A stretch of 39,014 nt of DNA, from positions 1 to 39,014 of the forward strand of contig DAHXOO010000021.1 of the NCBI GenBank assembly GCA_027364845.1, given 5' to 3'. Origin of the DNA: Pseudomonadota bacterium (GTDB lineage: Bacteria; Pseudomonadota; Gammaproteobacteria; Acidiferrobacterales; UBA6901). The translations under genes and the position numbers were made by a program. This document shows, in pieces, positions 13,951-18,676 of this stretch; position 1 is the stretch's first letter, and every line of letters begins with the position of its first letter. Under the pieces are notes generated by a model. That model had not been told where the DNA came from. It did not search any database and worked only from the letters and a program-made list of their open reading frames with translations.

Positions 13951-14378
13951 CGCTGTCCGGCTCCGACGCGCGGCGCTGTCGCAGCGTCGGTCGGCGTGCG
14001 GTATCGGCGTCGACATTATCAGAAGCGGTCCATTTCGGTTATCCTTAAAAATAACAACTGTGGCCAGCGACCCGGGAGCCATGATCGCATCCGTTCACAA
14101 GCCGTTCTTGTCGGGGTTATCGCAATCACCCTTGCCGTCGCATATTCAATCGAGATGCCTGTTGCCGGCCGGAATCTTCCGGCGGATCCAGATGGATTTT
14201 GGTCGAATCCGCAGGTCACGGGCTCGCCGGATGGAAGCATGCCTCGAGCCCGCTGCGTCACTGTGCCGCAATACCGTGCCGAATGTTGCGGTGTTGACGC
14301 GGTTCAGTACGGACGCCGGCCGAAATGCGCTGGGTGGAATGCTCCCGGCCAAGAGCCCGGGGTAGGCGGGGCGGCACG
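13951..14378. other. Region without confident gene between yajQ and the GGDEF gene
   Basis: Three plus-strand frames overlap here. One contains a membrane-like run VLVGVIAITLAVAYSIEM (about 14107-14160) followed by PVAGRNLPADPDGFWSN, which could be a small secreted protein, but it lacks a clear start and its later part overlaps the GGDEF gene. Another starts at ATG 14081. None has a family match, and no RNA structure was recognised. Confidence 0.35.
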
Positions 14379-15530
14379 GTGGCATCGTCCAGCGACAAGG
14401 AACTCGTCGAACTGCGGCGCACTTTGTCGCGATCGCACCGTCTCATGGAGGCGCAGGTGCGTCACAACGAGCGCATCTGGGCCGGCTTCCGCCAGATCGA
14501 AATCCAGATGATTGGTGCACAGTCGCTGGGTGAGCTGGTCGATACGCTGGTCACCCGGATCCCGGAGTTATTTCCGACAGTGGACTGCGTCAGCCTGGTC
14601 TGCGTGGATCCGGAATACGAATTGTCACGCCTGATGTCCGCATACCCGAAGAGTCAGGTCGGGCGATTTTTCATTCCGGTCGATCGTGAGTGGCTGGAGG
14701 GCCTGGTTCCCATCATGGGTAAGCCCCGGCTGGGTCCCTGCGATGTGCAATTGCAGGCCCGCATGTTTTGCGGTTGCGGTGTGCGCTTGAGCTCCAGTGC
14801 GATCGCGCCACTTACGCTGCATGGCACGCTCATCGGCTGCCTCAATCAGGGAAGCCGCGACGCCAGCCATTTTAACGCAGATGCGGCTACGGACCTGCTT
14901 GAACATCTGGCTGCCGTCACAGCCATGTGTATCGACAATGTCGTCAACCACGAGCGGCTCAAGCGCGATGGGCTGACCGACGCGCTCACCGGCGTTGCCA
15001 ACCGGCGTTTCTTCGAGCGACGCCTGCATGAGGAGCTCATTATGAGGCAGAGGCGCAGCAATTCGCTTGCGCTGCTGCTGGCGGATCTGGACCACTTCAA
15101 GGGTTTGAATGATCGCTTCGGCCATCAGGTCGGAGACGATGCGCTTAGGCAGGTGGCCCGTGCGCTTAGTCAAGGTCTGCGGGCGAGCGACGTGCTCGTC
15201 CGTTATGGAGGAGAGGAGTTTGCTCTGCTTCTGCCGGATACCGAGCTGAACAAGGCGCTCGAGATCGCTCAGCGCCTGCGCATGCAAGTCGCGGGCCTGG
15301 CCATCGACAGCTTGCAGGGCGAGGTTGCGGCGGTGACCGTGTCGATCGGTGTCACCTGTCTCGGGCCTGAGGGTAGTCCGGGGCCGCCGCCGGACAGCGA
15401 TGCCGGAACGTGGTTGTTGCGCCAGGCGGATGACGCACTTTACCGCGCCAAGGCAGCAGGACGAAACCAAGTCATCGTGGCGGACCAGCTGCGTTCCGGC
15501 AGACACGTACAGGATCCCCGGAAGCGCTGA
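14379..15530 (+). CDS. Diguanylate cyclase with N-terminal DUF484/GAF-like sensor
   Basis: A protein of about 383 residues. The N-terminal coiled segment ELRRTLSRSHRLMEAQVRHN leads to a GAF-like DUF484 domain (IQMIGAQSLGELVDTLVTRI through SSSAIAPLTLHGTLIGCLN). The GGDEF domain begins at LTDALTGVANRRFFERRL. Metal ligands lie in LALLLADLDHFKGLNDRFGH, the active site is RYGGEEFALLLPD, and the inhibitory site RASD sits five residues before GGEEF, so product feedback is expected. It makes cyclic-di-GMP from two GTP in response to an unknown cytoplasmic signal. GTG 14379 is chosen; ATG 14325 would add 18 Arg-rich residues. Confidence 0.9.
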   Translation: MASSSDKELVELRRTLSRSHRLMEAQVRHNERIWAGFRQIEIQMIGAQSLGELVDTLVTRIPELFPTVDCVSLVCVDPEYELSRLMSAYPKSQVGRFFIPVDREWLEGLVPIMGKPRLGPCDVQLQARMFCGCGVRLSSSAIAPLTLHGTLIGCLNQGSRDASHFNADAATDLLEHLAAVTAMCIDNVVNHERLKRDGLTDALTGVANRRFFERRLHEELIMRQRRSNSLALLLADLDHFKGLNDRFGHQVGDDALRQVARALSQGLRASDVLVRYGGEEFALLLPDTELNKALEIAQRLRMQVAGLAIDSLQGEVAAVTVSIGVTCLGPEGSPGPPPDSDAGTWLLRQADDALYRAKAAGRNQVIVADQLRSGRHVQDPRKR

Positions 15531-15639: not shown

Positions 15640-15830
15640 AAGATCGTTTACATATAAAAATAAAATTTATAATGTGCGCAAAAGGCCATGTTTCGTTTTG
15701 GCGCCAGGTCGGCGAAAACCGAAAATCATTCAGTTTTTTGAAAATGGTAAATGACAAATAAAATGTTGATTTATAATGTACAAATGTAATTATTGAAAAT
15801 TTTTCGCAGGAATCCCTATTGATTTTTCGC
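15640..15830. other. AT-rich intergenic block
   Basis: This stretch is strikingly AT-rich for the window and contains the 11-mer atttataatgt twice, at 15665-15675 and 15769-15779, each with a TATAAT. It has no protein-like frame and no good -35 for those boxes. It may be horizontally acquired or a binding region for nucleoid proteins upstream of the small RNA. Confidence 0.5.
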
Positions 15831-15846
15831 TGGCAATGGTTAATAG
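15819..15846 (+). promoter_or_regulatory. Candidate promoter of the small RNA
   Basis: ttgatt (15819-15824), a 16-base spacer and taatag (15841-15846) predict a start near 15853, just before the first hairpin of the RNA. Confidence 0.45.
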
Positions 15847-15852
15847 TTATGA

Positions 15853-15988
15853 CACACGGTAAGGAAGCTGTAGCCGAAGGAGCGACGTAATACCGGAGGT
15901 TTTCTATTAGGGACGACGCCGGTGCATGGAAGCACTGGCGAGTAGTGATCCATACTCCGCAGGCGGCCGAGAGGCCGCCTCTTTTTTT
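15853..15988 (+). ncRNA. Probable structured small RNA of about 136 nt, unidentified family
   Basis: No protein frame covers this segment, yet it has three nested structures. A cggta/taccg closing pair (15857-15861 with 15891-15895) encloses a 29-base region. A perfect 9-bp hairpin cgccggtgc-atggaa-gcactggcg spans 15917-15940. A terminator hairpin follows at 15961-15980 with seven T. A promoter-like pair at 15819-15846 would start transcription at about 15853. I do not recognise it as a known riboswitch, 6S, SRP or tmRNA. The next gene on the same strand is more than 900 bases away, favouring a free-standing RNA over a leader. Start, end and function are inferred. Confidence 0.6.
15961..15988 (+). 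terminator. Strong intrinsic terminator
   Basis: aggcggcc (15961-15968), tetraloop gaga, and ggccgcct (15973-15980) form a perfect 8-bp GC-rich stem followed by C and seven T (15982-15988). It ends the small RNA; the DGC gene ends 430 bases upstream. Confidence 0.9.
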
Positions 15989-16308: not shown

Positions 16309-16632
16309 TCAGCGCTCGAGGTATTTGAGCTTGCCAGGCACATCATCCCATTCTTTGGCATCGGGAGGCGCTGGCTTTTTTTCTGTCAAAACCGGCCAAT
16401 TGCGAGCCAGTTCGGCATTGATCGCGGTGAATTGTTCCTGGTCCAGCGGCAGATCGTCTTCCGCGAAAATCGCGTTGACCGGACATTCGGGAACACAAAG
16501 CGTGCAGTCGATGCACTCATCGGGGTCGATGACGAGGAAGTTGGGACCCTCATGGAAGCAATCGACCGGGCATACCTCGACGCAATCGGTATATTTGCAT
16601 TTGATGCAGCTTTCAGTGACCACGTAGGTCAT
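16309..16632 (-). CDS. fdxA: Seven-iron ferredoxin FdxA ([3Fe-4S] plus [4Fe-4S])
   Basis: A 107-residue protein on the minus strand, starting [20 protein letters not shown]. Cys9, Cys17, Cys21 and Cys50 correspond to the ligands of the [3Fe-4S]/[4Fe-4S] Azotobacter-type ferredoxin I. Cys25, Cys40, Cys43 and Cys46 ([12 protein letters not shown]) form the second cluster site, and Cys12 matches the extra Cys of that family. A C-terminal tail ([20 protein letters not shown]) is typical of FdxA. It is a cytoplasmic low-potential electron carrier. It stands alone, about 4.7 kb from the isc operon. Confidence 0.95.
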
Positions 16633-16954
16633 TTTCAGGTTCTCCCGCAGATCGTTTCGGCGCGGCCACCCGCGGCGGATCGCAGTCCTGGTTCTGTTCG
16701 GCAGGAGGCTACGGGCGCACCGAGGGCGCTTTGATGGCGGAATTCAGGGTCGGCGCCGGCTGCCGGATAATACACGTACCTTGGTGCGTAATGGAATCCG
16801 TGAGAGTACGAACCGATGCTGGATCCTGGCATCCCGTCGCGCGGAGCGCCGGCGGCAATGACTGATTCCGGGTATAGGGCTATGAACCGGGTCGTGCATG
16901 GGTTAAATTAACTGCCATGCCCAGAGGGTGTTCACACCGTTCCGGAGCCTACTC
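16633..16954. other. Divergent intergenic region between fdxA and the FimW-like gene
   Basis: Promoters for both flanking genes should lie here. A minus-strand tattat near 16765-16770 could be the fdxA -10. The palindrome gttaaattaac at about 16903-16913 lies 40 bases before the plus-strand gene. A 65-codon minus frame (16635-16832) shows no family features. Confidence 0.35.
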
Positions 16955-18676
16955 ATGAGCCATGTCGCTTCCGCTGATCCCGGCGCAGCCCCCGGTGTTG
17001 GCAACACGCAAGTCCGCATCAGGGACACCCGTTCCTGGATCGCATCGTTGCCGCTGGCCGACAGCGTCACAAGTGCTGAGCGCCTCTATCGGGCCCTGTC
17101 CGACCTCAACCGGCCAGAGCTCGAGCCCGGACATCGTCTGGATCTAATGGAGCTCTATGCGCAGCCGGTCGTGGGGGTATCGACCGCGCTGCAGGCGCCG
17201 TGGGCGTATCTGCGGCTGCCGATGGCTCCCAAGGCGCGCCAGCGTGCGGAATTCCTGCGAAATCTGCATGGTGAAATGGCCTGCGGTTACCAGTATGCGC
17301 TGCGGGACCTGTTCAAGGCACACCATCCCTGGGACAGAAAGGCAGCCGTGTGTCTCGCTGCGGAACGGGCGATGCACCAGTTGGGTGAGGTGCTGCTGCG
17401 TTCCTATCAGGTATACATGCCGGGTCCGGCTGGTGTGTGGCGTGAGATCCACGCGCTTTACCGCCTCGTCGAAGAACGTGGCTTGCTCGATCATCCGCTG
17501 ACTCGAGTGTGGGAGGACGCAGGCGCCAGGGTGACGGTGCGAAACACCTATCTGCGGGTGCTGCTGCTGGGTCTGTGCGGACCTTACCAAGCGCCGCAGA
17601 AGGACTGCTTGCGGATCAACGCCTTCCTGTGGAATTGGGCGGACAAGGCGTCCATCGGGTCGCGCCCGGGAGTCATGAATCCCGCGGGCCTTTTTCTGGT
17701 CGATCTCTCGGCCGATGTTCCAGCCCGGCCTGTTCCCAGGGAGACGACGCCTGCGGCCGGGCCCAATTTGCGGGTACTGGCCACGTTCGGGCTTGCGCGC
17801 GCCGTACATGAGCTCATTCAGCAGCTGCGGGGCAGGGAGCCCGTGCGTCGGCTCGCAATCGGGTTTGACTGCGGCGACAGCGGCTGCATCGATGTGCTGC
17901 GGCACATGGTCCGTTTCTGGGGAGTTGGAGCGTACCGCCAGTATCCGCGGCGCAGCGCGCGCGATTCGGAGCTGTCTTTGTGCGTAGGGCTCAAAGCGCT
18001 GCATTTCTTCAGCAGTGGACGGAAACTCTTCACGTCGCCATTGGCGGTTCCGACGGACCACGGTTTCGGGTACCGGGCCGTGCCGAAGCCGCAATCGCAT
18101 GCCGGAGAACGCAATGTCGATGAAGCGTTCATTGACCTTGATGGCGGTAACGTTTTCCCCGAACCAGGCGCATCGAACCCGGCGCAGCGGCAACCTGCCG
18201 AGGAACGGTTTCATACCCATCAATGGGATATTGGTGACGAAAGCGCCAGCGGATTAGCGCTCGCGCATCGCGGCGGCGGTGTATCGGTGCGCGTTGGAGA
18301 CCTGGTTGGGATCCGCGGGCTGGGTGCTGGTGGCTGGAGTGTGGGCGTGGTGCGTCGGCTCACGAGTCCGGATACCGCCCGCGTTGACATTGGCGTGAAG
18401 ATGCTTGCCCCCGGCGCATTGCCGGTCGCGGTGAAGCCAACCGATGACGCCACGCTTGCGGGCTATGTTCCGGCGTTGCGGCTGGCGGAGATCCCGGCTG
18501 TATGCCAGCCGCCGACGCTGCTTCTGGATCGCGGGCTGGCGTCTCCAGGGAAGGACCTCGAACTGCTGGACGAAGAGAATGGCAGCGGGCCGCCGTGCCG
18601 CGTGCGTGTCCTGAAGGTGATCCGGTGCACTGCCTCGTTCGAGCAAGTGGTCTTTACACCGGTGTGCCAGCCGTGA
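16955..18676 (+). CDS. FimW/PilZ-like protein, possible cyclic-di-GMP receptor
   Basis: A 573-residue cytoplasmic protein from ATG 16955, with ggag 7 bases upstream. The N-terminal half is helical: SWIASLPLADSVTSAERLYR, ALSDLNRPELEPGHRLDLME, then MACGYQYALRDLF and LHRSYQVYMP-like helices. The C-terminal part (about 440-570) resembles a PilZ barrel, with VRVGDLVGIRGLGAGGWSVG, VVRRLTSP and VDIGVKMLAPGALPVAV. The layout matches long proteins annotated as the cyclic-di-GMP receptor FimW, which influences type IV pili. Canonical PilZ RxxxR and (D/N)xSxxG are not evident, so ligand binding is uncertain. It is a single gene with suhB convergent just beyond its end. Confidence 0.6.
   Translation: MSHVASADPGAAPGVGNTQVRIRDTRSWIASLPLADSVTSAERLYRALSDLNRPELEPGHRLDLMELYAQPVVGVSTALQAPWAYLRLPMAPKARQRAEFLRNLHGEMACGYQYALRDLFKAHHPWDRKAAVCLAAERAMHQLGEVLLRSYQVYMPGPAGVWREIHALYRLVEERGLLDHPLTRVWEDAGARVTVRNTYLRVLLLGLCGPYQAPQKDCLRINAFLWNWADKASIGSRPGVMNPAGLFLVDLSADVPARPVPRETTPAAGPNLRVLATFGLARAVHELIQQLRGREPVRRLAIGFDCGDSGCIDVLRHMVRFWGVGAYRQYPRRSARDSELSLCVGLKALHFFSSGRKLFTSPLAVPTDHGFGYRAVPKPQSHAGERNVDEAFIDLDGGNVFPEPGASNPAQRQPAEERFHTHQWDIGDESASGLALAHRGGGVSVRVGDLVGIRGLGAGGWSVGVVRRLTSPDTARVDIGVKMLAPGALPVAVKPTDDATLAGYVPALRLAEIPAVCQPPTLLLDRGLASPGKDLELLDEENGSGPPCRVRVLKVIRCTASFEQVVFTPVCQP

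Follow-up and report, generated by a model that had tools for sequence, protein, structure and literature searches.

Sponge RNAs of the Csr/Rsm kind, among them PrrB/RsmZ of Pseudomonas and CsrB/CsrC of enterobacteria, are already known. The ANGGAN hexaloop has been described as a high-affinity CsrA/RsmE site, and the SELEX consensus for CsrA is RUACARGGAUGU (PMC7652899). According to a figure legend in one report, Pseudomonas rsmZ regions carry fdxA, mutS, nlpD, and rpoS (PMC4353343). For the acidophile Acidithiobacillus caldus, work published in 2026 states that Csr-family sRNAs have yet to be found (PMC13029372). We analyzed a window of 39,014 nucleotides (positions 1 to 39,014 of contig DAHXOO010000021.1, assembly GCA_027364845.1) from a gammaproteobacterium of the order Acidiferrobacterales. 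The window contains a conserved gene that very probably encodes a stand-alone sRNA of ~135 to 140 nt predicted to sequester CsrA/RsmA, most likely the equivalent of RsmZ in this lineage at the fdxA locus. The locus comprises the following features.

14325 to 15530, + strand: diguanylate cyclase (DUF484/GAF-like plus GGDEF), upstream of the RNA on the same strand; the same neighbor is found in relatives

15729 to 15742, no strand assigned: palindrome TTCA-GTTTTT-TGAA, candidate upstream activating site, conserved upstream of the loci that have hairpin 1

15819 to 15824 and 15842 to 15847, + strand: candidate promoter, -35 box TTGATT and -10 box AATAGT with a 17-nt spacer, recognized in the sequence and kept in relatives

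15850 to 15988, + strand: small RNA, with a 5' end predicted to within a few nucleotides; a block conserved in the genus and beyond, with covariance-model matches

15856 to 15871, + strand: hairpin 1, ACGGU-AAGGAA-GCUGU, with an ARGGAN hexaloop, candidate CsrA site 1, showing covariation

15877 to 15881, + strand: AAGGA, candidate CsrA site 2, conserved in five full-length group A sequences

15892 to 15898, + strand: ACCGGAG, part of a weak 3-bp hairpin, candidate CsrA site 3; GGAGG is invariant in six sequences

15907 to 15913, + strand: UUAGGGA, candidate CsrA site 4; in relatives GUACARGGAUGA, near the SELEX consensus

15917 to 15940, + strand: hairpin 2, 9 bp, with hexaloop AUGGAA (ANGGAN), candidate CsrA site 5, 100% paired; the hairpin of the earlier note on this DNA

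15961 to 15988, + strand: intrinsic terminator, an 8-bp stem at 15961 to 15980 with a GAGA loop, then CTTTTTTT to 15988; conserved in homologues

16309 to 16632, - strand: fdxA ferredoxin (NF045490, above the cut-off), the convergent neighbor, an arrangement kept in several families

The earlier note had proposed a small RNA gene carrying a promoter and a terminator of its own, a reading now well backed by conservation, covariation, and synteny; the promoter, hairpin, and terminator are all present in the order that it gave, and its transcript of ~136 nt agrees with the length predicted here. In homologues, the -35/-10 pair is conserved just before hairpin 1, mostly as TTGATT-N16-TATAGT (16-nt spacer), and an automatic sigma-70 scan did not pick up the promoter at 15819 to 15847 at its threshold. 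Like Csr/Rsm RNA genes, the locus appears to be an independent unit with an intrinsic terminator, the promoter being assigned by conservation only. The terminator is GC-rich across homologues. The predicted fold of the RNA had a stability z score of -2.26 relative to shuffled sequences, of which 2 in 200 were as good. The 5' closing stem of the earlier note is less certain than the covarying local hairpin at 15856 to 15871, and its 9-bp hairpin, at 15917 to 15940, falls just short of perfect, one of the pairs being a G-U wobble. That note passed over the features that proved most informative, namely, the GGA motifs and the palindrome upstream. A covariance-model search for a second copy of the RNA in the same genome returned only short terminator-like matches. 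The stretch from 15640 to 15815, upstream of the sRNA promoter, is strongly AT-rich.

When 60 related genomes were searched with the DNA, clear homologues with 77 to 82% identity appeared within the genus and in G033, four genomes in all (G033, G003, G002, and G004), and a partial homologue, adjoining an assembly gap, appeared in G001. A second, more diverged set is present in the genus Sulfuricaulis (g9) and has the terminator and GGA motifs in common with the first, the alignment of group A with the Sulfuricaulis group being reliable only at the 3' end. Further loci were sought with the cyclase as bait in named genome contigs and with fdxA as bait in the order. These searches identified RNAs at the same position in L063/L093, L088, L097, L113, L108, and L111, all of them convergent with fdxA. 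A covariance model built from only the six group A sequences recovered the same loci with E values of 2e-6 to 0.0015, the scores deriving partly from the terminator. Homologues are spread across the order of the source genome, and those adjoining fdxA contain several GGA motifs while their sequence diverges. In the Sulfuricaulis-type loci (L036 to L042), the RNA carries 7 to 10 GGA motifs and lies between addA/addB-type (helicase/nuclease) genes, with fdxA at a distance of ~3 to 7 kb.

Two further observations concern the neighborhood. In L062 (5104 to 5200), the cyclase gene is followed directly by fdxA with no RNA in the gap, an apparent loss or relocation. Positions 16928 to 18676 of the window encode a 582-residue protein without a Pfam match; it also follows fdxA in L113/L049 (G018) and is therefore part of the conserved neighborhood.

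In 13 loci, the stem of hairpin 1 has 5 bp and closes an ARGGAN hexaloop. Standard pairs accounted for 94.5% of the cells counted, and double changes affected four of the five pairs. The covariation score was 0.676, versus 0.375 ± 0.063 in shuffles and at most 0.336 in slid controls; none of 500 shuffles reached the observed score, a count that is not a probability because the loci are modest in number and related. In hairpin 2, all pairs are kept in six sequences and two pairs have changed on both sides; the terminator stem is invariant. The hairpin 2 loop is ANGGAN or a close variant across homologues, and its GGA is predicted to be unpaired with a probability of 0.99 in the RNA of the window and of 0.90 to 1.0 across all six group A RNAs. 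Candidate site 4 reads GUACAGGGAUGA in G033 and G003.

The RNA contains five GGA motifs, a bare count that is not above that of dinucleotide shuffles (P = 0.28), and three of the five are predicted to be mostly or partly paired. The more specific ANGGA motif is present four times, versus 0.87 in dinucleotide shuffles (P = 0.006). In the two aligned groups, the full-length homologues carry 6 to 10 GGA motifs, with ANGGA P values from <0.001 to 0.06, and ANGGA exceeds dinucleotide shuffles in most homologues. Two conserved hexaloops and three further GGA sites thus provide the several GGA motifs, some of them in loops, that characterize Csr/Rsm RNAs. The genome also encodes CsrA (90.3 bits), with the canonical sequence MLILTRR...VHREEIY.

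Comparison of the RNA with Rfam, as suggested in the earlier note, gave nothing meaningful and no Csr/Rsm family match at either the gathering cut-offs or a relaxed E value; for RF00166 (PrrB_RsmZ), the gathering cut-off is 44 bits, and relatives score 25 to 29 bits. The link to the Csr/Rsm class runs via these diverged relatives, which score below gathering cut-offs. In unbiased scans against all 4,227 Rfam families, L038 gave a full-length match to PrrB_RsmZ (25.7 bits; E = 2.4e-4), and two loci convergent to fdxA, L113 and L097, matched CsrC (28.6 bits; E = 2.6e-5) and PrrB_RsmZ (25.2 bits; E = 0.023), respectively. The best families of all three belong to clan CL00106; the three RNAs are not members by the rule of Rfam, because their scores are below the curated cut-offs. 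For L063 and L042, the best match in the Rfam scans was not a Csr/Rsm family. The earlier note had been unable to match the RNA to a known class; this stands at the Rfam gathering thresholds, but the relatives place the RNA in the Csr/Rsm class.

The RF00166 search also yielded false positives within genes and at terminators. A weak match in G006 was dismissed as driven by a terminator, and a match at 763178 in G017 was dismissed because it lies inside a long open reading frame with simple repeats; the real copy in G017 is located by fdxA. As a positive control, the RsmZ model identified the RNA of G217 with 84 bits, rpoS upstream, and GacA box TGTAAGCATTTGCTTACG.

The palindrome ends 76 bp upstream of the -35 box. 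All 13 loci with hairpin 1 carry TTCA-N6-TGAA 111 to 131 bases upstream of that hairpin (eight perfect copies and five with one mismatch), and a perfect copy occurred in 0 to 1.7% of shuffled upstream regions. Since the palindrome had first been noticed by eye, the proper control was a ranking over all alternatives, for which 256 four-base arms were combined with 15 spacers. TTCA-N6-TGAA ranked first of the 3,840 combinations, being present at a common offset in 8 of 10 representative loci; the next best combination reached 3 of 10. Its distance upstream of the sRNA promoter is nearly fixed in the window and in L063, L068, L076, L088, L097, L108, L111, and L113. It is absent upstream of the RNAs of the Sulfuricaulis set (L036 to L042). 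Among the 12 WTTCA-N6-TGAAW sites of the source genome, most are inside open reading frames, and no other precedes an Rsm-like RNA. Judged by eye against the Fis motif, a Fis site was set aside, the spacing being off by one and the spacer always 6.

Upstream of the RNA and its relatives, the best matches to the GacA box TGTAAG-N6-CTTACA had 3 to 5 mismatches and the count in the window equaled chance, and the GacA box was dismissed as the control site on these grounds. The best GacA/UvrY score in the genome, which is 96% complete, was 104.5 bits, under half of the cut-off of 280. The best NarL-type response regulator of this genome (L117; G000:C120:8417-9055), only 29% identical to UvrY, is a possible candidate for acting at the palindrome. 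In G017 and G025, in which the palindrome is present, a response regulator scores higher with the GacA model, yet under the cut-off, and a diverged relative of GacA may therefore exist in these genomes.

The strong terminator with its long U-run and the conserved GGAGGU would fit a base-pairing, trans-acting sRNA of the Hfq or ProQ type, in which the GGA motifs would be incidental, for example as purine-rich seeds. However, the GGA motifs are in hexaloops under covarying stems, GGA recurs in diverged relatives with unconserved intervening sequence, and comparison across groups revealed no single-stranded seed conserved over more than the GGA sites. Together with the matches of relatives to the Csr/Rsm clan in unbiased scans, these observations make a base-pairing sRNA improbable.

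Two other explanations would deny the RNA a gene of its own. The conserved cyclase gene upstream on the same strand would be accounted for if the RNA were a leader or attenuator, or if it arose from the diguanylate cyclase operon as a 3' untranslated region or by readthrough, but such an origin is difficult to reconcile with the conserved -35/-10 pair just before hairpin 1 and with the ~290 bp, much of it AT-rich, that separate the cyclase stop codon from the promoter. It also fits poorly with the Sulfuricaulis loci, in which the RNA lies between addA/addB-type genes and the cyclase is not immediately upstream, and with the next downstream gene, which is on the opposite strand; we consider it very improbable. 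The convergent layout with fdxA could reflect a bidirectional terminator serving fdxA and the cyclase gene, with chance structure upstream and no functional RNA. This is scarcely credible, as it leaves unexplained the covariation, the conservation of the promoter, and the distant conserved palindrome, and since the GGA loops are kept in relatives despite sequence divergence.

A CsrA-sequestering sRNA remains the preferred reading, drawn from the observed gene architecture, conservation, covariation of hairpin 1, GGA loops, synteny, CsrA gene, and conserved palindrome. A regulator bound at the palindrome would drive transcription from the promoter of the sRNA gene, with control probably exerted from TTCA-N6-TGAA rather than by GacA. 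The RNA would then fold so that GGA is exposed in the loops of hairpins and in single-stranded linkers, and it would bind one or more CsrA dimers; the resulting sequestration of CsrA would free CsrA-repressed target mRNAs. A CsrA dimer has two RNA-binding surfaces, on which basis the five sites could hold about two dimers. More tentatively, and with the balance tilted slightly against it, we suggest that an RsmZ-type sponge has been kept in a deep gammaproteobacterial lineage in which GacS/GacA is missing or replaced. Another regulator at TTCA-N6-TGAA would then set CsrA activity, possibly with coupling to the neighboring diguanylate cyclase and hence to c-di-GMP.

In the literature searched, which left most subscription papers outside, we found no published report of this RNA; in the literature searched, we likewise found no published Csr sRNA for Acidiferrobacterales, Sulfuricaulis, or Candidatus Muproteobacteria. 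The analysis extends the Csr/Rsm sponge sRNAs to these mostly uncultured relatives. The novelty lies in the lineage, in the absence of a match in Rfam, and most of all in what appears to be a swap of the GacA input for another conserved palindrome, which offers a direct handle on the control of a CsrA sponge without GacA.

Among known systems, CsrB and CsrC of enterobacteria (RF00018 and RF00084) sequester CsrA via GGA loops, as is proposed for this RNA, and L113 weakly matches CsrC, whereas the RNA described here is shorter, has fewer sites, and itself has no match. It resembles PrrB/RsmZ of Pseudomonas (RF00166) in size, in its several hairpins with GGA loops, in its terminator, and in the proximity of fdxA (PMC4353343), and relatives give weak full-length matches to the model. 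Unlike PrrB/RsmZ, the RNA is itself below detection by the Rfam model, and the upstream gene is a diguanylate cyclase gene instead of rpoS. In position, fdxA adjoins the RNA and rpoS does not; the sole Pseudomonas-type control, G217, has rpoS and no fdxA within 3.1 kb. The rsmX/Y/Z genes carry a GacA box, whereas a different palindrome is found here in its place. Both elements are inverted repeats with a 6-bp spacer located upstream of an sRNA promoter, and the arms of the palindrome in this lineage are TTCA and TGAA.
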